Shown piece by piece: positions 3,893 to 40,429 of a stretch of DNA of 40,471 bases (position 1 is the first letter of the stretch; every line of letters begins with the position of its first letter). Below the pieces are notes generated by a model, which worked only from the letters and a program-made list of their open reading frames with translations, was not told the origin of the DNA and did no database searches. The position numbers and the translations under genes were made by a program. This stretch comes from Eubacterium sp. (GTDB taxonomy: Bacteria; Bacillota; Clostridia; Oscillospirales; Acutalibacteraceae). The stretch lies in contig JAFLRZ010000018.1 of assembly GCA_022511225.1 (NCBI GenBank), positions 1 through 40,471 on the forward strand. The letters run 5' to 3'.

Positions 3893-4918
3893 TTATCCTA
3901 TTGCCATATAGTAAATATAGTTCGTACTTGAAGAACTACGATTATTATGAAATATAACATTAAAGCCTTTTCTTGTTATATTATCAGCAGTAGCGTATCT
4001 GTCTGAATATTGTGTATTAATAGTTACAAAAACAAAAGGTACATGTGAAAAATAATTATAATTCCATTCGTGAGAGACAACGTTGTCGCTTTTCCCTTCT
4101 GCTGTTATATGGTCTCTACCAATAACAATTTGCAATCCATTTTCAAGAGGAATTGCAATATGATTATCTGATATACTTGCAATACAACCAGACTTTATTT
4201 TGAAAAAATCAAATCCGTTATCTTTAAGCAGTGAAAGCGTATCAGTTTTTGAATTGTTAATATGGTTTGTGAGTTTATCGATTGCACTCCATACTTTAGT
4301 TAATATTTTTTTGATTGTATCGCCTTTTTTTATGTTTTCAAGCGGTGAGCCTGTATCAAAATTTGGAACTTGGTCACTAATTGCCAAGTTTTCAACTTTT
4401 TCAAGTCCGAAATCTTTTTTCGTTAAACCGTGAGGATTGTTTTTGTTGCTGATGTGGTCTAATAAATCCTGCTTTGATGCGTATTGAATACTCTTAATTA
4501 CAGCAGATACGTTTATATTTGATGAAATTATTAGCATTACTGAAAGATTGTTTTCGATATTTATTCCGCTTTGATTATCTTTAATGATTTCAAGTGCATC
4601 TTCCGTATTAACATAAGCAAAAAGAATTTCCCCTTCGTCGGGGTCGGTCGCATATACGCCAACTTCATTCCATGTGATATCGTTTTCTACATCGCTGTTA
4701 TTGTAACCTGTACCGACAAGAGTTACATTATTGTCGTTTCTGTCTATACGACTGATACTGATATTCTTAATCGGATTTATAAGGTCTGTAAGCGATTTTG
4801 TATCAATACCCTCTGCACTACCACGACCGATTTTCAATTGTGTGAATTGTATTTCTTCGCCGCAAAATGCTTTAACCATTAATGAAATTCCGCTTAGCGT
4901 TAACGTTGGTTGTAACAT
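3893..4918 (-). CDS. Tail fibre, P2 gpH-like N-terminus (341 aa)
   Basis: Residues 1-150 match the tail-collar fibre N-terminus (DUF3751 type) by pattern: LTLSGISLMVKAFCGEEIQFTQLKIG, then NDITWNEVGVYATDPDEGEILFAYVN. A hinge HISNKNNPHGLTKKDFGLEKV (about 178-198) is a typical phage fibre repeat. The C-terminus (285-341) ends in a beta-rich receptor-binding type domain. It follows the gpI gene by 4 bases. This is the most likely host-recognition protein of the virion, and it carries no DGR variable repeat. Confidence 0.85.
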   Translation of the reverse strand: MLQPTLTLSGISLMVKAFCGEEIQFTQLKIGRGSAEGIDTKSLTDLINPIKNISISRIDRNDNNVTLVGTGYNNSDVENDITWNEVGVYATDPDEGEILFAYVNTEDALEIIKDNQSGINIENNLSVMLIISSNINVSAVIKSIQYASKQDLLDHISNKNNPHGLTKKDFGLEKVENLAISDQVPNFDTGSPLENIKKGDTIKKILTKVWSAIDKLTNHINNSKTDTLSLLKDNGFDFFKIKSGCIASISDNHIAIPLENGLQIVIGRDHITAEGKSDNVVSHEWNYNYFSHVPFVFVTINTQYSDRYATADNITRKGFNVIFHNNRSSSSTNYIYYMAIG

Positions 4919-22388: not shown

Positions 22389-23015
22389 TCATTTTATTGC
22401 TTTATCAATCGCCCTATTTGCTTGATGTTCGTACCTCTTTATCATCGTATCGCCGATGTACTTATCTATCTTTTTCCTTACATCTTTGTTGTCTATCATC
22501 TGTGGTATGCCGACAGCCTTAACAGAGTGTATCGGGTGTGACTTGCTTCCTGCTCTTTGAAATGGAATGTAACCTCCGCCTTTGTTTGAACCAAGAAATA
22601 CAGGTCGGTCGCTTGGACCTTTCAAGGGTACCTTCTTTCCCTTGAATATCTGCACTTTCAGTTTGTACCTGCGACCATTAGCGGGTAATGCTTTCGGTGT
22701 CATTCCAAAATGTAGAGGTGTAAGTCTACGACCTTTGTAGACTAAAGCAACGCTATGTAGGCTATGACCTGCTGCTTTAACTGTTCCTATTTTTTTTGAG
22801 CCTGCCTTTGCCTGCTTGCCTGCTGCAGTCATTTCGGATTTCTTAATGTTGTATTTCTCTGTGACTGCTTTCGTTACTTGTGCGGGTGCTCGGCTGACTG
22901 TATCACGAATAGCACTATCAAGAGCTTTGGTGCTTGCCTTTTCGATTTTTTGCAGTTTGCCTTTAAGCTGTTTGTGATTCGTGAAATTTATTGACATAGA
23001 GCCTTTTTGAGCCAT
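22389..23015 (-). CDS. Minor tail protein Z-like (GPZ family, 208 aa)
   Basis: The pattern INFTNHKQLKGKLQKIEKASTKALDSAIRDTVSRAPAQVTKAVTEKYNIKKSEMTAA resembles lambda gpZ-like minor tail proteins, with a central basic part (GRRYKLKVQIFKGKKVPLKG) and SDRPVFLGSNKGGGYIPFQRAG. The start at 23015 is chosen because AGAAGTG lies ahead. It is out of place: the gene lies upstream of the terminase, ahead of the whole head cluster, so it is separate from the rest of the tail. Confidence 0.7.
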   Translation of the reverse strand: MAQKGSMSINFTNHKQLKGKLQKIEKASTKALDSAIRDTVSRAPAQVTKAVTEKYNIKKSEMTAAGKQAKAGSKKIGTVKAAGHSLHSVALVYKGRRLTPLHFGMTPKALPANGRRYKLKVQIFKGKKVPLKGPSDRPVFLGSNKGGGYIPFQRAGSKSHPIHSVKAVGIPQMIDNKDVRKKIDKYIGDTMIKRYEHQANRAIDKAIK

Positions 23016-23073
23016 AGTAATCACTTCTTTTTTATTGATAATAAATAATTTGTTTAGATTACGTAAGTGTCAC

Positions 23074-23128: not shown

Positions 23129-23515
23129 TTATTGCACCGACTTCATTTTGTCAATATTCTTAATTGCTCTGCTGTGGAATTTGAAAACTTTGCGTTTATA
23201 TTTGTCAAAATTGATTTCATAATCAGACTGACTGTGATACATAATTTTGATAACTGTATTCCAATCGAGTCGGTCGATATAACGGTAAGTCATTATTTGC
23301 CGTTGTGCAGTGGAGGTAAGCCCTGCTATTGACCTTTTTATGTAATCTTTTTCAGCGATTTCTTTATTCGTGCGGTTGATAATCTGCTGCTTGATTTCAT
23401 TAAGTTTATCAGCGGAGGTATTACCGCCCTTTTCTAATTCCTCATACCTCGCTATTTCTCGGTCGTTTTCCTCAACAATTTCAAGGTAAGCGGCGAGCCT
23501 TTCTTTTGAGTTCAT
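23129..23515 (-). CDS. Sigma-related late transcription regulator (RinA/ArpU/DUF1492 type, 128 aa)
   Basis: The C-terminal half, STAQRQIMTYRYIDRLDWNTVIKIMYHSQSDYEINFDKYKRKVFKFHSRAIKNIDKM, resembles sigma-70 region 4 as in RinA/ArpU/DUF1492 proteins, which switch on late genes in Firmicutes phages. The N-terminus is a coiled helix. It lies directly upstream of the late operon, which suits that job. GGAGG lies ahead of the ATG. Confidence 0.75.
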   Translation of the reverse strand: MNSKERLAAYLEIVEENDREIARYEELEKGGNTSADKLNEIKQQIINRTNKEIAEKDYIKRSIAGLTSTAQRQIMTYRYIDRLDWNTVIKIMYHSQSDYEINFDKYKRKVFKFHSRAIKNIDKMKSVQ

Positions 23516-24872: not shown

Positions 24873-25916
24873 TCATTCCTGCTCTACCTCCTCAGAAGTT
24901 TCTAAAATTTCATTTATCTTATTTTCAAGATTTTCTATGAAATCTTCACAATCACCTTGTAATGCGTGATCCTTAAAAGACTGAAAAGATTCGTTAAGCT
25001 TTTCGAGCTTTGTTTTGCCCTCAGCAACACGCTTTGCCATTTTGGTATATTTTCTATAGGCATTTCGCTTTTTATCATTTGAAAGTCTGCAAATAATTTC
25101 ACCGTTTCGTATGTAAGTGTGAAATCCTAAAAACTTTATACCTTGCTTAAAAGGCATTATTTGAGTTTTTCCGTTAAGCGTTAATTTCAATCCCCATATA
25201 TGCTCGTTAATAAGTTGTAAGCAGTTTTTCAAGTATTCCTTGTCGGTATGTATGATATAAAAATCATCTGCATATCTACCGTAGTATGAAAAATGCAATT
25301 TGTCTGTTATTAAATGATCTAACTCATTAAGATACAATAGAGCGAAAACTTGACTAGTCTGATTTCCGAGCGGTAGTCCCGGATCGGCCGTGCTATCAAT
25401 GATCACATCACAAAGCCACAAGATATTTTCATCATCAAAATATTTTCTTAATAACGATTTTGTATAGGTGTGGTCTATGGTGTAATAGAACTTCGTAACA
25501 TCAGCTTTCAGAATATATCCATTCATACCATTTTCTTGATGAAAGGACATCATATGCTTTTTAAGAATATTGAGTCCGTATGATGTGCCTTTACCGATTC
25601 GCCCGGCAAAATTTGTTTCGATAAATTCTTGCTCCAATCTCGGAATAAGAACATTATCACAAAGACTATGCTGAACAACGTTATCCTGAAATGATGAAAT
25701 CATAATAAGTCTCTTTTTCGGCTCATATACATACTTTTTGTGATATGGTGAAACCTTGTATTTTTTAGTTTCTAAAAGTAATTTCAAACGGTTTATTCCA
25801 TCTAAGCAGCGTATTTGAAATTTAGCTGAGCTGGCTCTGTAATGCTTACCGCATTTAGCTTTTTTATAGGCTTTGTAAAGATTAGAAAAATCAGTTACTT
25901 TTTCAAAATCTGTCAT
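24873..25916 (-). CDS. DGR reverse transcriptase (347 aa)
   Basis: A DGR-type reverse transcriptase. The polymerase has all palm motifs: Asp139 in LKADVTKFYY, the double Asp of YADD (residues 215-218) in YYGRYADDFYIIH, and GNQTSQ at 184-189, where group II intron enzymes have QGxxxSP; this variant marks the DGR clade. The start at 25916 (MTDFEKVTDF) is chosen because the frame upstream runs through the template repeat and would give an artificial N-terminus. No strong ribosome binding site is seen there. It copies the RNA made from the template repeat, with errors at adenines. Confidence 0.9.
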   Translation of the reverse strand: MTDFEKVTDFSNLYKAYKKAKCGKHYRASSAKFQIRCLDGINRLKLLLETKKYKVSPYHKKYVYEPKKRLIMISSFQDNVVQHSLCDNVLIPRLEQEFIETNFAGRIGKGTSYGLNILKKHMMSFHQENGMNGYILKADVTKFYYTIDHTYTKSLLRKYFDDENILWLCDVIIDSTADPGLPLGNQTSQVFALLYLNELDHLITDKLHFSYYGRYADDFYIIHTDKEYLKNCLQLINEHIWGLKLTLNGKTQIMPFKQGIKFLGFHTYIRNGEIICRLSNDKKRNAYRKYTKMAKRVAEGKTKLEKLNESFQSFKDHALQGDCEDFIENLENKINEILETSEEVEQE

Positions 25917-26017
25917 ATAAAAGTTTAATAATGAAGAACAAGAGAAAGGTAATATACTCTTTTGTGAGGAGTGTGCTGATTTCAGCGTACTGCTTACTCT
26001 GTCTGACTTTCTCCCAG

Positions 26018-26089
26018 AACGCACGAGCCCCATTGTGATTGTTACAGTTATTGTTGTTGATGTTACAATCAGGCGAAAGAACGCAAACA
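26018..26089 (-). repeat. DGR template repeat (TR, 72 bp)
   Basis: On the coding (-) strand the TR reads in AAY codons: GAT TGT AAC ATC AAC AAC, AAT AAC TGT AAC AAT CAC AAT, then GGGGCTCGTGCGTT. It lies between the avd gene and the reverse transcriptase. Compared with the variable repeat at 26539-26610, it differs at 11 of 72 positions; 10 of the 11 are among its 19 adenines. The first 19 and the last 14 bases of the coding strand contain no adenine and are identical in both repeats. The adenine-free 3' end probably serves as the initiation site of mutagenic homing. Confidence 0.93.
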
Positions 26090-26117
26090 AGGGTTATACA
26101 GTATATTACCTGCGCTG

Positions 26118-26489
26118 CTATCTTTCTTTATCTCTTGTTCTCCAAGCAATCGTCATATATTTAACATCGGAAACAAGCTTCGACCAATATGCAGCACTCT
26201 TATCGGTGATAATCTTAAAATCAAGCAACAGCTCTATGTAGTACGAAAATTTGTCACATTCGTTAATGACTCGACTTTGCAACTCAATTCTGCGCTTCCC
26301 GTTTGTATTCAAATTCGTTCTATTCGCATCCATAAGCATTTCGTATATATCCATAGATTTGTTCTGCAATCTGACACGAAAAGTAAATGTGTACTTTTTG
26401 GGAAACTTGCTACTGTCTGTTTTCTGAATCGTATATTTATTCAATTCCTTTGATTTTAAAATCACTTTTAATTCGGTTTCTTGTTCCAT
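26118..26489 (-). CDS. avd: DGR accessory variability protein Avd (123 aa)
   Basis: The helical protein has the Avd pattern: FPKKYTFTFRVRLQNKSMDIYEMLMDANRTNLN, RIELQSRVINECDKFSYYIELLLDFKIITDKSAAYWSKLV and SDVKYMTIAWRTRDKER. Avd forms a pentameric four-helix-bundle barrel that binds the reverse transcriptase and the template RNA. It starts 15 bases after the target gene stop, has GGAG ahead of its ATG and lies just before the TR, the usual order. Confidence 0.9.
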   Translation of the reverse strand: MEQETELKVILKSKELNKYTIQKTDSSKFPKKYTFTFRVRLQNKSMDIYEMLMDANRTNLNTNGKRRIELQSRVINECDKFSYYIELLLDFKIITDKSAAYWSKLVSDVKYMTIAWRTRDKER

Positions 26490-26504
26490 AATTGCTCCTG
26501 TTTA

Positions 26505-27116
26505 TCAAGATACTAAGATATCAGATTTTAAGATACAAAACGCACGAGCCCCATCGTGATAGTAACAGTTACCGTAGTGGATGCCACACACAGGCGAAAG
26601 AACGCAAACACCATATTTATAGCCGGTATCTTCTGTTGCCCAAGCATTTGCAAGCCACTGCCAATCATCAACGCATTTTTTATAATCAATGAAAATGTCT
26701 ATGTTTTCTCTTGCAAAATCAAAAGTTGGAATGCTGATATACGCCTCACAAGTGCCATTATCTTTCATTCCGTTAAGTGTAGTAAGATCAACCGTGTGTT
26801 TGCAAATATTATCTTCGCCGACGATTTCCTTAAGCTCATCAAATAATGGGCTTAATTCTTCTTTAATCGAAGCGTTTGCAAGGTTTGGTGTATCTTCGTC
26901 AAACTGTGTGTTTTCGAGATAAAACTCTTTTGTCATTAACATTGTTCTGCCGTCAGGAAGATGTCCGCATACTATGTATTCACGGTCGCCGAGAGTGATT
27001 GTTTCTTTTCGATCATACTCTCCGAGTGGTTTCGGCATTCTTTCAACGATTTCAAGGTCGTTTACATCAACACCAAATTTCTTTGCGATTTCCTCAATTG
27101 TAATTTTCTTTGACAT
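26505..27116 (-). CDS. DGR target protein with variable C-type-lectin-like C-terminus (203 aa)
   Basis: The last 24 or so codons before GARAF are the variable repeat. Residues 1-30 look like a small helical part (ITIEEIAKKFGVDVNDLEIVERMPKP). The C-terminal half has CLec/DUF6273-like features: IDYKKCVDDWQWLANAWATEDTG, VCVLSP, then GARAFCILKSDILVS. Diversified residues compared to the template are 176, 178, 180, 181, 182, 185, 186 and 188. There is no signal peptide, membrane helix or coiled coil. AAAGGAG lies ahead of the ATG. The gene is not near the tail genes, so a role as receptor-binding protein is not supported by position. Confidence 0.88.
   Translation of the reverse strand: MSKKITIEEIAKKFGVDVNDLEIVERMPKPLGEYDRKETITLGDREYIVCGHLPDGRTMLMTKEFYLENTQFDEDTPNLANASIKEELSPLFDELKEIVGEDNICKHTVDLTTLNGMKDNGTCEAYISIPTFDFARENIDIFIDYKKCVDDWQWLANAWATEDTGYKYGVCVLSPVCGIHYGNCYYHDGARAFCILKSDILVS
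26539..26610 (-). repeat. DGR variable repeat (VR, 72 bp) at the 3' end of the target gene
   Basis: The VR matches the template in 61 of 72 positions. On the coding strand template codons and variant codons read AAC to GGC, AAC to CAC, AAC to TAC, AAT to GGT, AAC kept, AAC to TAC, AAT to TAT, AAT to GAT, and GAT to GTG (the last also changes a T). The final 14 coding bases, GGGGCTCGTGCGTT, are unchanged and would be the homing initiation site. No stop can arise from AAY codons by A changes. The stop of the target gene follows about 30 bases later. Confidence 0.93.
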
Positions 27117-27170: not shown

Positions 27171-27440
27171 TTACCCCTCTGCCTCGCTTTCAAGCCATTG
27201 TTTCATCAGTGATTTTCTATAATTTATATCGCAATTGAAATCTTTATCAGCAACACAATTATCACCATCTGTTTTATCACATAAATCGCAGAACGAAGGA
27301 ATTGCAAATGGTGATCCAAATGCAATAGCCATATCATCAAGTGACATCTTCTTTATCCAGTCAAATTTTGTATACGGCTTTAATAAAGACACCTTTTCCT
27401 CTTTCGGTTCTATGTAGCCGTTCCCTAATCCTAAACACAT
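27171..27440 (-). CDS. Hypothetical protein with Cys/Asp-rich centre (89 aa)
   Basis: TTGGAGG lies ahead of the ATG. The protein contains FDWIKKMSLDDMAIAF, then CDLCDKTDGDNCVADKDFNCDINYRK with four cysteines, a possible metal site, and a C-terminal helix. Short proteins of this kind are common in Clostridial phage operons. It lies between the methyltransferase-like gene and the DGR target. No function can be given. Confidence 0.6.
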   Translation of the reverse strand: MCLGLGNGYIEPKEEKVSLLKPYTKFDWIKKMSLDDMAIAFGSPFAIPSFCDLCDKTDGDNCVADKDFNCDINYRKSLMKQWLESEAEG

Positions 27441-27461: not shown

Positions 27462-28088
27462 TTAAGTTAGTTTATCAACAAAATGTATTCCGAAGAATTC
27501 CTCAGCCTCTTTGCAATGTTCAATTTTTCTCAAGGTGCTAAATCCCATTGGGTTATTTTTTTCATTAAACACGTGATAAACATCTTTCGCCTTTTGAGTT
27601 AATGTATTGCCATGTATTACAACAGCATTCATTCCTCTAATCATCAAATTAAATAACAAGAAGGGAATCGTCTTATCACTAAGTTCATAACAAAAATATA
27701 ATATGCTCATAGGATTGTAATTCCAAATGTAATCAGATCTAACTCTCTTATACCAATGCTGAATTACTGTACTCCCTGTTCCTGCTGCTGGCTCGCATAT
27801 AATACCATCGTCAGCTTCTAAAAATTCTGCCATTAACTTAGAAATACACGTTGGTGTAAAATCTTGCTTGTTTCTTTTCCTGTCAGCGTGTTCATCTTCA
27901 AAATAGCTATTAAACCATTCATAGCTTACGTCATAATTAAACTCTTCCAGGAAAGAAAAGAATAACTTTTTTGATGCTTTTTGATCTGATAATAATTGCA
28001 TCATTCTTTCAGGTGCCTTATAGCTATCATCAATATCAAGAAGTTTGTTTATTTTAGACAACATACTTTTTGTGGCTGTTTTTGACAT
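27462..28088 (-). CDS. N6 DNA methyltransferase-like protein without a visible catalytic motif (208 aa)
   Basis: Features are those of N6_Mtase (type I HsdM-like) domains: an N-terminal part with DRKRNKQDFTPTCISKLMAEFLEADDGIICEPAAGTGSTVIQHW, where ICEPAAGTGS is the SAM-binding motif I. The usual catalytic motif NPPY/DPPY is not found, and the length is about half a normal methylase. The start at 28088 is chosen over in-frame ATGs at 28109 and 28097 by the AAGGAG ahead; any choice overlaps the recombinase gene. It may be a degraded or regulatory relative. Confidence 0.7.
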   Translation of the reverse strand: MSKTATKSMLSKINKLLDIDDSYKAPERMMQLLSDQKASKKLFFSFLEEFNYDVSYEWFNSYFEDEHADRKRNKQDFTPTCISKLMAEFLEADDGIICEPAAGTGSTVIQHWYKRVRSDYIWNYNPMSILYFCYELSDKTIPFLLFNLMIRGMNAVVIHGNTLTQKAKDVYHVFNEKNNPMGFSTLRKIEHCKEAEEFFGIHFVDKLT

Positions 28089-29043
28089 TCTCTTCATTAC
28101 TCCTTGCATATATAGTTGTGGTTTCTATCTTGGCATGTCCTAACATTTGTGAAACCTGCTCTATGGGCATTCCTCTATTAAGTGCTATCGTTGCACAAGT
28201 TCTTCTGAACCTGTGAGGATGGCACTTTTTCACGCCAGCTTTATTTCCTACATTGCGAATCAGAGTTTCTACAGCTCCTGCAGTTAATCTTTTATGCGGA
28301 CTTCTTAATTCTACAAATAATGAATCATTGTTATCAGTTCGGCTATTTAAATAATCTTGTAGTGACAATTTTGCTCTTGCATTAAGATAGACTATTCTTT
28401 CCTTTTCACCTTTACCAAAAACAACTATTTCATCACCGTCGATATCCTCTTTATTCATTGCAATAAGTTCAGCACATCTGACACCGGTCGAATATAAAAC
28501 ATCAATTATAGCTTTATCTCTTATGTTATCAGCTGCGTTTCTGATTTTTTCCAACTCCACCTCTGAAAAAGGCTGTTTTATTCTTTTTTCTTGTTTAACC
28601 GGCTTTATGTTAAGCGTAGGTGATTTACATATGTATCCTTCGGCAGAACACCAGTTAAAAAAGCTTTTTAAAACACGCAATTCATTATCCTGAGTTGTTT
28701 TGCTTATTTTATCTTTCATTGAGCGGTTGGCTATGTAGAATCTAATAGCATCAGCATCAATATCATTTAAATCTGCTGTAATCATTTGAAAAAATACAGT
28801 AAGAACAATTTTGTAATAATTAATCGTCTTATCTGTGCAACCCTCTACCTTTTTCGAGATAAAAAACATCTGTATAGCCTTTGTCTTTAGGTCGCTATAT
28901 ACAGGCGCCAACTCCTGAGAGCGTTTTGAAAAATCATAATCATTTAACACTATATACAAGGCATTTCTTACAGTTTGAATATCATTGCCATCTGATAATG
29001 AAACAAGATTTATTACTTTATCTACTATTTCACTATTTTTCAT
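28054..29043 (-). CDS. Tyrosine recombinase, XerC/D-like (329 aa)
   Basis: The N-terminal SAM-like domain is followed by the catalytic part: Arg in LYSTGVRCAELIAMNKEDID, H-R in HPHRFRRTCATIALNRG, then SQMLGHAKIETTTIYAR with the Tyr nucleophile. The gene lies in the middle operon and not next to an att site. The integrase of the phage is the other one at 38956. It may resolve dimers or act at a site that was not found here. Confidence 0.85.
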   Translation of the reverse strand: MKNSEIVDKVINLVSLSDGNDIQTVRNALYIVLNDYDFSKRSQELAPVYSDLKTKAIQMFFISKKVEGCTDKTINYYKIVLTVFFQMITADLNDIDADAIRFYIANRSMKDKISKTTQDNELRVLKSFFNWCSAEGYICKSPTLNIKPVKQEKRIKQPFSEVELEKIRNAADNIRDKAIIDVLYSTGVRCAELIAMNKEDIDGDEIVVFGKGEKERIVYLNARAKLSLQDYLNSRTDNNDSLFVELRSPHKRLTAGAVETLIRNVGNKAGVKKCHPHRFRRTCATIALNRGMPIEQVSQMLGHAKIETTTIYARSNEENVKNSHKKYVV

Positions 29044-36917: not shown

Positions 36918-36946
36918 TTGACACGCACATTTTTTTGTGCTATTCT
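36918..36946 (+). promoter_or_regulatory. Promoter of the CI-like repressor gene
   Basis: TTGACA (36918-36923), a 17-base spacer, TATTCT (36941-36946). The spacer contains a small palindrome (GCACATTTTTTTGTGC). The transcript would start at about 36953 and has a very short leader before the ATG at 36970. Confidence 0.8.
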
Positions 36947-36969
36947 CAAAGAGAAATGAGGTGTTAAGA

Positions 36970-37401
36970 ATGGGTATAGGTATTATATTGCAAGAATTAA
37001 TTGATACTTGTAATACTAATGTAAAAGAAATAAGCAGAGAAACAAAAGTCCCTGCTTCGACCATATATAGCATAATTAAAAGAGATAATAAAAATGCAAA
37101 TATTTCTGATTTGTATAAAATTGCACATCATTTAGGTGTTACATTGGATTATTTCTATGAAGGTAATGCTAACAGTAATATTTCATTATCTTCTCACGAA
37201 AAAACAGTTATTACAGCTTACAGAAATCAGCCTGATATGCAGGGGGCAGTTGATCGCTTACTCGGTATTCAGGAAGAAGAAAAGGTTGTTGTATTTCAGG
37301 CTGCACGAAGCAAAAACAATACACCTCCGGGTTATGTTGAAGTACCAAAGTCGTTAATTGACAAATTAAAGAATGCACCCGATTTTGATGGTGATTTATA
37401 A
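36970..37401 (+). CDS. CI-like phage repressor (143 aa)
   Basis: Start at 36970 from GAGGTG at 36958-36963; an in-frame ATG at 36937 is inside the promoter. N-terminal XRE-type HTH: IGIILQELIDTCNTNVKEISRETKVPASTIYSIIKRDNKNANISDLYKIAHHLGVTLDYFYEG. The C-terminal 60 residues are short and carry no peptidase S24 domain, so it is not LexA-type self-cleaving. Its removal would fall to the ImmA-like protease encoded next. Confidence 0.85.
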   Translation: MGIGIILQELIDTCNTNVKEISRETKVPASTIYSIIKRDNKNANISDLYKIAHHLGVTLDYFYEGNANSNISLSSHEKTVITAYRNQPDMQGAVDRLLGIQEEEKVVVFQAARSKNNTPPGYVEVPKSLIDKLKNAPDFDGDL

Positions 37402-37473
37402 TAAAATTTAATTCCATTATTTACCTGTATATTTCTGCATTAGTAAAAATGTAAAATATTACAGGTGATGGAA

Positions 37474-38043
37474 TTGAGAAACTATGGTAGATATAAAAAC
37501 ATTAGAAATGCATCTTGGCAGGCGTTAATCGATTTTAATATTTCACAATTGCCTGTTTCACTAAAAAATGTGGCATCTCAGGCAAATATTAAAATTATTC
37601 CGAACAGCTCCTGCAATATACTTAATGACAATCAAATCGGCTTAAGCCTCAGTATTGATGATGAATGGTATATTATATACGATGATACTTGTACAAAGGA
37701 ACGCTCACGATTTACAATAGCTCACGAGCTTGGGCATATCTTTTTAGGGCATTCTCTTACTGATTCAGGTATGTTCAGAACTGTAGGTACAATAAACAAA
37801 CCTGAGGAAGAGCAGGAAGCCGATATGTTCGCAATACGCTTTTTAGCTCCTGCTTGTGTACTTAAAGGTCTTGACCTGCACACTGCAAAAAAAATTGCCG
37901 ATGCTTGTTGCATCTCAATGCAGGCGGCGCAGTACCGGGCAAACCGTATGAAAATTTTATATGAAAGAAATAAATTCTTTTTAAGTCCGTTGGAAAGACA
38001 AGTTTATAGGAATTTTGAAGAATACATAAAAAGAAAAAAATAA
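37474..38043 (+). CDS. ImmA/IrrE-type metallopeptidase (189 aa)
   Basis: Zinc motif HELGH in RFTIAHELGHIFLGHSLTD, a third ligand Glu in EEEQEADMFAIRFLAP. This family cleaves phage or ICE repressors after DNA damage, as ImmA does with ImmR in ICEBs1. The likely start is a TTG at 37474 with AGGTG 6 bases ahead; an ATG at 37468 lies too close to that site, and the frame also offers a GTG at 37465. It follows the repressor gene, so the CI-like protein is its probable substrate. Confidence 0.85.
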   Translation: MRNYGRYKNIRNASWQALIDFNISQLPVSLKNVASQANIKIIPNSSCNILNDNQIGLSLSIDDEWYIIYDDTCTKERSRFTIAHELGHIFLGHSLTDSGMFRTVGTINKPEEEQEADMFAIRFLAPACVLKGLDLHTAKKIADACCISMQAAQYRANRMKILYERNKFFLSPLERQVYRNFEEYIKRKK

Positions 38044-38880: not shown

Positions 38881-38909
38881 ACCTGCATCATTTTATGATT
38901 TATGCAGGT
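38881..38909 (+). other. Stable hairpin before the integrase gene
   Basis: ACCTGCAT (38881-38888) and ATGCAGGT (38902-38909) with an inner CAT/ATG pair form a strong stem that follows a T run (CCCTTTTT). It adds to the folded leader and may hide or set the ribosome binding site GAAGGTG at 38944. Confidence 0.6.
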
Positions 38910-38955
38910 AAGTGACCTGCTGCAAATTCAGCCAAATAAAATTGAAGGTGACACG

Positions 38956-40314
38956 ATGGCAAAAGAGAAAAAGAAGAAAACAAAAAGCCGTTTTAATGGT
39001 GAAGGCTCTCTATATTACGATAAGAGTAAAGACCGTTGGTATGGAGTTGTTACCGTCGGCTTTGATTTAGAGGATAAACCTATACGAAAAAAGGTCAGCG
39101 ATAAAGACCACTCGGAAGCACAACGAAAATTTGAAGAGCTGAAAGAGCAGGTGCGTAAAGGCACCTATGTTAATAAGAACGACAGCAAGCTTGAAGATAT
39201 CATTAGATATCAGGTTGAAAAGGATAAATCGCTTAATATAATCAAAGATGTATCTTACCATAGGCGCATCGAAACTCTAAAGATTGTTCAAAATTCCCGC
39301 ATCGCTAAAATGCCGATACAAACTATTGATGATTTATGTCTGCTTAACTTTTTTAATTCTATTACATCCTATTCGCAATCGGTAATACGAAAAGTTTACG
39401 GTCAAATCAATTCAGCTTTCAAGTATGCGCAGAATAAGGAAATTATATATCGCAATCCACTTGAACAGATAAGAATGCCGAGATCTGCGAAAGTTACAAA
39501 AAAGATATCAGCATTGACAGTAGAGGAGCAGAAAAAGTTTGTTGAGATATTAAACAATCAAGAAGCTAACAATAAATACCGATTTATTTTCTTAATGATG
39601 CTTACCGAAGGGTGCCGTTGCGGTGAGGTTTGCGCTCTTGATAAAGAAAAAGATATAAGCTTTAATTTTAAGTTTATCAATGTTCGGCGAACAATTACAA
39701 GAGATATTAATGATAAGCCTATTATTGGAACAGATGCTAAAACCGAAAGCGGTCAAAGGTCATTTACAATGACTGATGCCTGCTGCAGAGAACTCAAATA
39801 TTATATAGATAATATATGGCAGTCGAATCGTTATAATCTTCTCTTTTATGATTTTGAAAATGACAAACTGATAACTACGGGTCAGGTTAATTCTGCTTTT
39901 CAACGAATAATAGAAAAATATGAAATAATACCTATACACGAAGAGTTCAAAATGCTTTCGGAAAAAGGGCGAAAAAAGATAGCATATAAAAAATATACTT
40001 ATTATAAAAAACTGCCTGATGGTACCTTTGAACGATTGAAAAAAGAGCCGCCGATTGATTGGGAGCGTAATTTTGGAAAATATTATTTCAAAGATAAGGT
40101 TGGAGACAAGCCGTTTAATGTGCATATGCTTCGACATACTTTTGCTACTCGCTGTATTGAGAGCGGAATGCCTGCAAAGGTGCTTCAAAAGATACTCGGT
40201 CACGCTGATATTGAAACAACCTTAAATACCTATTGTGATGTATTTGAGGAATACGAAAACAACGCAATGAAACAAGCAGAAACTTATATGAAGAAATTAT
40301 CTTTGATAGGTTAA
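38956..40314 (+). CDS. int: Site-specific tyrosine integrase (452 aa)
   Basis: The start at 38956 has GAAGGTG 5 bases ahead; the frame is open back to 38902, inside the hairpin. N-terminus: basic stretch, then an AP2-like DNA-binding domain (GEGSLYYDKSKDRWYGVVTVGF) for arm sites. Catalytic part: Arg in LTEGCRCGEVCALD, HMLRHTFATRCIESGMP with H and R, ILGHADIETTLNTYCDV with the Tyr. It lies 103 bases from attR and reads toward it. It inserts and excises the phage at the tRNA-Pro gene. Confidence 0.95.
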   Translation: MAKEKKKKTKSRFNGEGSLYYDKSKDRWYGVVTVGFDLEDKPIRKKVSDKDHSEAQRKFEELKEQVRKGTYVNKNDSKLEDIIRYQVEKDKSLNIIKDVSYHRRIETLKIVQNSRIAKMPIQTIDDLCLLNFFNSITSYSQSVIRKVYGQINSAFKYAQNKEIIYRNPLEQIRMPRSAKVTKKISALTVEEQKKFVEILNNQEANNKYRFIFLMMLTEGCRCGEVCALDKEKDISFNFKFINVRRTITRDINDKPIIGTDAKTESGQRSFTMTDACCRELKYYIDNIWQSNRYNLLFYDFENDKLITTGQVNSAFQRIIEKYEIIPIHEEFKMLSEKGRKKIAYKKYTYYKKLPDGTFERLKKEPPIDWERNFGKYYFKDKVGDKPFNVHMLRHTFATRCIESGMPAKVLQKILGHADIETTLNTYCDVFEEYENNAMKQAETYMKKLSLIG

Positions 40315-40320
40315 TCAGTT

Positions 40321-40343
40321 CATTGCTCCCCGCATTGCTCCCG
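40321..40343. repeat. TTGCTCCCC repeat pair (right), possible integrase arm-type site
   Basis: TTGCTCCCC (40323-40331) and TTGCTCCC (40335-40342), joined by GCA, equal the left pair at 180-200. It lies between the integrase stop and attR. Confidence 0.5.
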
Positions 40344-40416: not shown

Positions 40417-40429
40417 GTCACCTCGACCA
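40417..40429 (+). other. attR core (13-bp direct repeat)
   Basis: GTCACCTCGACCA, the same as 43-55. Sequence outside the repeat differs from the tRNA, so only the 3' end was duplicated. Host DNA follows at 40430. Confidence 0.85.

Follow-up and report, generated by a model that had tools for sequence, protein, structure and literature searches.

The best overall explanation of the element described here is a complete diversity-generating retroelement (DGR) that diversifies a likely non-virion binding protein in a contractile-tailed temperate phage, and we put the probability of this reading at about 0.85. The element lies on the minus strand of the window, by which we mean the whole stretch of DNA analysed, a complete contig of 40,471 bases. 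By its anatomy, it is near certain to be a complete, textbook DGR. The DGR mechanism was already known, as were second, non-tail targets in published phages; what is new is the identity of the target and the early-type context of its gene. One more complete cassette is in itself unsurprising, given that gut phages often carry DGRs, whose mechanism is established. The features on which the argument rests are listed in Table 1.

Table 1. Features of the DGR and its prophage, in window coordinates (TR, template repeat; VR, variable repeat; RT, reverse transcriptase).
Feature	Position	Strand	Size	Matches and remarks
DGR cassette, in order	26505-27116, 26118-26489, 26018-26089, 24873-25916	-		Target, then Avd, TR and RT
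Target gene	26505..27116	-	203 aa	PHROG 9958, 1.3e-19; AlphaFold2 pLDDT 91.1; lectin-fold matches
VR	26539..26610	-	72 bp	About residues 170-193 of the target
VR 3' segment	26539..26554	-	16 bp	Same as TR 26018-26033 (alignment)
Avd accessory protein	26118..26489	-	123 aa	PHROG 3206 'Avd protein of DGR', 3.8e-19
TR	26018..26089	-	72 bp	
DGR RT	24873..25916	-	347 aa	PHROG 1423, 2.5e-103; Pfam RVT_1, 1.5e-13
DNA methylase, neighbour	27462..28109	-		PHROG 1071, 1.8e-71; N6_Mtase, 1.1e-11
Transcriptional regulator, neighbour	23129..23515	-		PHROG 36, 6.3e-07
'Tail completion or Neck1' gene	22389..23024	-		PHROG 27, 1.9e-17; nearest structurally labelled gene, about 1.8 kb past the RT
Tail-fibre gene	3893..4918	-		PHROG 7037, 3.4e-32; no TR match
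Integrase, right prophage end	38902..40314	+		PHROG 1, 1.1e-55; Pfam, 5.9e-24

The first-pass annotation had reported all parts of a DGR in this order on the minus strand, and both coordinates and order were right. Its call of a DGR-type RT is upheld by the PHROG 1423 and RVT_1 matches, and the two motifs that it named, GNQTSQ and YADD, are present in the translation. The Avd gene was also correctly placed, as the PHROG 3206 match shows, with a Pfam bAvd score of 19.4 bits that falls under the cut-off of 40; the Avd of one relative from the same genus is 73% identical. Recounting the two 72-bp repeats gave the same figures as before, namely 11 mismatches, of which 10 fall on the 19 template adenines and one on the 53 other bases (hypergeometric p = 1.6e-6). 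From TR to VR, the adenine substitutions are A>G (five), A>T (four) and A>C (one). The sole non-A mismatch, a T>G, adjoins an A>T in the same codon, which reads GAT in the TR and GTG in the VR. Eight codons differ in the target frame. The VR retains exact TR matches in flanks of 20 bp and 16 bp, and we take the 16-bp segment at its 3' side to be a possible initiation-of-homing segment.

Two details of the earlier description needed adjustment. The template codons are not mostly AAY, as these make up 8 of the 23 whole codons in the target frame, though they hold 16 of the 19 adenines; the accompanying claim that changes of A give no stop was correct, a stop being impossible through A-only changes. 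The VR lies inside the target gene near the C-terminus, as had been claimed, but it does not end the gene, as 34 bases of reading frame, stop included, still follow. A BLASTN-type search of the host assembly (2,225,161 bases in 48 contigs) with the TR region (26000-26110) found two places, the TR and the VR, and thus no second VR in these 48 contigs. Some DGRs, though not all, have cis elements behind the VR, for example a DNA hairpin. No perfect inverted repeat of at least 6 bp with a loop of 3-12 bases was found within 80 bases 3' of the window VR, and 4 of 58 VRs of relatives have an inverted repeat of at least 7 bp behind them. At gathering thresholds, the two Rfam matches in the window both lie outside the DGR.

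The repeats could also be a chance or recombination-borne duplication beside another kind of RT, for example a defence RT, and we regard this as exceedingly improbable. PADLOC RT profiles match the window RT too (best 4.1e-33), as is expected, since any RT of this fold would match. The PHROG 1423 match is far stronger, an Avd gene adjoins, a tree of 81 rows places the RT among DGR RTs, and the adenine bias contradicts a duplication of that origin. The pattern also recurs in relatives: in 83 distinct TR/VR pairs, differences occur at 960 of 1759 template A sites against 19 of 4235 other sites, a ratio inflated by the pair finder, which penalises non-A changes. These totals cover pairs within target-profile ORFs, with one VR-VR pair (L006/L162) set aside. 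In a control of the mutable base on 16 stretches (the window and 15 relatives), 28 pairs were obtained for A, none for C, five for G and one for T, and at least one of the 28 A pairs, the third of L160, is not in a target.

If the element works as its known homologues do, the RT, acting with Avd, would copy the TR RNA and misincorporate bases at template adenines; the mutated cDNA would then take the place of the VR in the target gene upstream. This would randomise residues that a small C-type-lectin domain carries on its C-terminal beta strands. The AlphaFold2 model of the target predicts a single such domain, with strands at residues 169-173, 179-183 and 187-190, i.e., in the VR region, and the VR is accordingly predicted to sit on the C-terminal strands of the domain. 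Beyond the domain, the model has short N-terminal helices only, and no attachment domain is apparent. No membrane segment was detected in any of 77 distinct targets (19-residue window above 1.6, Kyte-Doolittle). The fold is matched by 24 viral models at E <= 0.001, 7 of which are named DUF6273; the target has no match to Pfam DUF6273 at E up to 1, and its likeness to DUF6273 is one of modelled fold. It has no Ig-type Pfam match either. Some of the fold matches among predicted viral proteins are named receptor binding protein or tail sheath protein, and Mtd is not among the 50 fold matches listed, which carries no weight either way. In a genome of the same family, four PHROG 9958 matches lie in one open frame of 2601 residues (locus L043, G087:C24:16569-20507), hence large proteins, too, can carry several copies of the domain.

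The window looks like one complete integrated prophage, since a repeat spans the end of a tRNA and an integrase lies at the far end; the first-pass annotation had likewise placed the element, with all its parts, inside a prophage. The contig starts with a 3' tRNA fragment whose 5' end is cut (1-52, Rfam; ARAGORN lists no tRNA). A 13-base repeat over the tRNA end, at 43-55 and again at 40417-40429 just beyond the integrase, is a candidate attachment site; a longer repeat of 21 bases (180-200 and 40322-40342) is a second candidate or may represent integrase binding sites. A late block on the minus strand extends between about 22 kb and 1.4 kb and comprises, in this order, terminase, portal, protease, capsid, sheath, tape measure, baseplate, tail fibre and endolysin genes. 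Judged by its genes, the phage is temperate and contractile-tailed.

The DGR is positioned upstream of this late block, where the early region gives way to the packaging genes. Its early-side neighbours comprise the methylase and a second tyrosine recombinase as well as an HNH nuclease, a ParB-like gene and a replication initiation gene; on its late side are small unassigned ORFs, the PHROG 36 regulator and the PHROG 27 gene, followed by the terminase. The target gene is 21.6 kb from the tail-fibre gene, which has no VR. The second tyrosine recombinase (28054-29043, minus strand; Pfam Phage_integrase, 3.1e-35) adjoins the methylase and the DGR. Elsewhere in the prophage, a FuFi-1 RNA (Rfam RF02986; 35598-35826, plus strand; 111.7 bits against a gathering score of 59.6) lies between the early genes and the regulator genes of the plus strand. 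There, at 36937-38043, an HTH regulator is followed by an M78 (ImmA/IrrE-like) peptidase, likely a lysogeny control pair, and the peptidase is also matched by the PADLOC capP and RmrA profiles. Among ten window proteins searched, PADLOC returned methylase, nuclease, generic RT and peptidase-type matches, the last to the M78 protein.

Relatives were collected by RT and target searches of viral and genome collections, to which two phage records (nd4 and nd12) were added; the set is biased to this type of cassette because it was fetched with RT and target queries. A search of viral contigs with a single target sequence gave 39 pattern matches, none of them confirmed, and the alignment query gave 43. 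The cassette counts, made without loci L034-L063, comprise 61 non-redundant groups with a target-profile hit. The target lies at most 2.2 kb upstream of the RT in 44 of the 61. Tandem pairs of targets occur in 30 of these 44; the search for VRs succeeded in 43 of the 44, and for both targets in 28. The other 17 groups consist of 8 without an RT on the sequence at hand and 9, nd4 and nd12 among them, that have an RT and no strong target hit just upstream. In ten viral records, the target-profile search gave three matches each, i.e., two targets and one weak match, the latter falling at the TR in the records checked (L145 and L160). No VR outside the cassette was found with the relative's own TR in two genomes and in three viral records of 34-42 kb, which may be fragments.

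The RT nearest to that of the window (72% identical) belongs to a genome of the same genus, G337; of the two targets in that genome, the one upstream shares 55% identity with the window target. Another genome of the genus, G311, has an RT of 61% identity and one target, and the best RT among the viral contigs fetched is 65% identical. The window cassette may have lost a second target, given that G337 has two. As a candidate remnant of such a gene, the upstream stretch 27171-27440 was rejected: its product has no Pfam match and is 40% like a different ORF in L187. In L172 and L015/L146, the second target is not in tandem and lies about 6 kb off the cassette, with a VR that differs from the TR only at adenines. 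The RTs of L008, L009, L011 and L013 have GNQINQ in place of GNQTSQ; the VR changes are A-specific in three of these cassettes (L008, L009 and L013), and the L011 record begins at the RT. At L005 (7998-9032), the RT is split over two frames, and the VR of the target has 9 of 20 adenines changed and no other change.

The genes flanking cassettes in relatives were scanned at 31 loci outside the single-target group (L074-L078, L081, L082, L177 and L079). Upstream, 111 of 133 ORFs were included, and downstream 118 of 138, those dropped being mainly antisense ORFs. Repressors or regulators and integrases belong to the commonest upstream PHROG families, as do methylases, ParB-like proteins, a DnaD-like loader and single-strand binding protein. 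The corresponding downstream families are replication initiation, with 10 members, the PHROG 36 regulators, with 5, HNH nucleases, terminases, and annealing and exonuclease proteins. Tail families are absent from the commonest 25 of 164 families in the upstream flanks and from the commonest 25 of 150 in the downstream flanks. With PADLOC, the 111 upstream flanking genes gave mostly methylases among the best 25 of 39 families.

In the RT tree of 81 rows, from which L005 and L128 were dropped as short, 41 cassettes with an adjoining small target, the window and three rows labelled 'other' form one clade (support 100/99). Two of these 'other' rows, L011 and L072, begin at the RT or a few bases from it, so their upstream part is missing, and the third, L084, has a weak target hit (9e-08). 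Counted strictly, the target label changes five times on the tree, once as a gain and four times for single rows, namely the three 'other' rows and the window, which carries its own label. Six of the seven RTs labelled tail or remote, nd4 and nd12 included, are in a neighbouring branch with eight 'other' rows; the seventh, L113, is on a long branch elsewhere in the tree. We see an even chance that these cassettes represent a distinct phage DGR lineage dedicated to early-region lectin-fold proteins, often two in tandem and with no tail target, which would serve inside the cell to counter host defences or rival phages, and not in adsorption, with the one-target prophage of the window as its simplest form. 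We found no description of an early-only DGR lineage in the literature searched; supplementary catalogues, which lay outside the search, may list the target cluster.

Among known systems, the closest likeness is to the second targets of phages nd4 and nd12. These proteins are also small, with one lectin-type domain, a VR near the C-terminal end and a gene far from the tail region. The profile built from the window target and its relatives finds them at 4e-42 (nd4) and 2e-33 (nd12), and tblastn of the window target to nd4 gives 1e-13, with 34.6% identity over 73% of the query; on sequence similarity, the window target is a homologue of small DGR targets of this type. In both phages, a tentaclin target stands beside the RT in the tail region and the small target is remote (PMC10743442). 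There, a DGR in the tail region has the small protein as its second target, at a distance of 11-14 kb from the TR, whereas in the window it is the only target and adjoins Avd, TR and RT; in nd4- and nd12-like genomes with a single target, that target is tentaclin (PMC10743442). The remote target of nd4 is near genes annotated as a polymerase III subunit, SSB and a DnaC-like protein, and that of nd12 is among hypothetical genes.

The first-pass annotation had likened the mechanism to that of Bordetella phage BPP-1, which holds for the retrohoming parts: TR, VR, Avd and RT, adenine-specific change, and a lectin-type domain with a C-terminal VR are common to both. The likeness does not extend to the target, since Mtd of BPP-1 is a multi-domain tail protein and the window target is a predicted single domain of 203 residues whose gene is remote from the tail genes. 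Gut phages, including Quimbyviridae, have been reported to carry second targets close to genes of defence or counter-defence (PMC8008677, PMC12629997), and the window shares with them a DGR-mutated non-tail gene near methylase-type genes. In Quimbyvirus, the non-tail VR is additional to a target in the structural module, and in four species it is distal from the RT cassette, whereas in the window the whole cassette adjoins its only target; the comparison is one of context. Faecalibacterium phages Lelie and CP11 have DUF6273-type targets, one large and one small (PMC11792537). They differ from the window in having two targets of unlike size and in the DUF6273 assignment itself, and the RT of Lelie is 36% identical to that of the window. 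In a survey of inducible gut prophages, DGRs are reported for 13 of 68 species, mostly Bacteroidota phages (PMC12629997).

Two roles for the target have to be weighed. It could be a virion-attached, Mtd-like receptor-binding protein whose gene merely lies outside the tail module, so that host recognition would be changed as in BPP-1. An Mtd-like role was proposed for the homologous second targets of nd4 and nd12 (PMC10743442), although in those phages the tail-region target is the other one. The structural names on some viral fold matches and the place of the cassette next to the late block, with the PHROG 27 gene and packaging genes just downstream, give this role some weight; the 21.6 kb to the tail fibre, the early or lysogeny-type neighbours of the cassettes in relatives and the single-domain model without an obvious attachment part count against it, and we consider it possible but doubtful. 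The role that we prefer, and that seems reasonably probable, is that of a binding protein which the infected or lysogenic cell makes and which is not part of the virion, because the small non-tail target is found alone in the lineage of the window, none of the 77 targets passes the hydropathy threshold for a membrane segment and the model has no attachment domain. Such a protein might bind, for example, a fast-changing host-defence or rival-phage protein.

Signs of activity were sought in related cassettes, where new adenine-specific VR variants had been anticipated. Three of these, from Eubacterium plexicaudatum ASF492 (L074), Roseburia sp. 1XD42-69 (L075) and Lachnospiraceae bacterium MD308 (L076), bear this out: in pairwise comparison, their VRs differ at 15/25, 14/25 and 17/26 template-A sites, compared with 1/57, 3/57 and 2/56 other sites, and the rest of the target gene has 38, 39 and 67 differences of 673. 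The anticipated variation did not appear in nine sets of near-identical cassettes (0 to 3 differences), which showed no VR or TR differences; the sets contain distinct records only, several loci being one contig fetched twice, and may share sampling sites. These unchanged VRs in near-identical viral records count against recent activity there. The same prophage was sought in other strains for VR variation, and none was found.

The cassette might then be intact and inactive, with the VR as an old retrohoming product and the element silent or degenerating. The invariant VRs just described, the one non-A change in the window VR and the single target, where most of the relatives counted and one of two same-genus relatives have two, are consistent with this. 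Full-length open frames of RT, Avd and target and the exact TR matches in both VR flanks speak against it, and we consider it unlikely. From its repeats and its relatives, the window DGR is presumed to be mutagenically active at present.

In summary, the diversified proteins found in this lineage are predicted single-domain lectin-fold proteins with genes outside the tail region, which makes the purpose of phage hypermutation separable from tail adsorption. If the target is absent from virions, phages would be using targeted hypermutation inside the cell. The prophage in the window, with one target, offers a simple case for asking about the distal DGR targets that lie near counter-defence genes.
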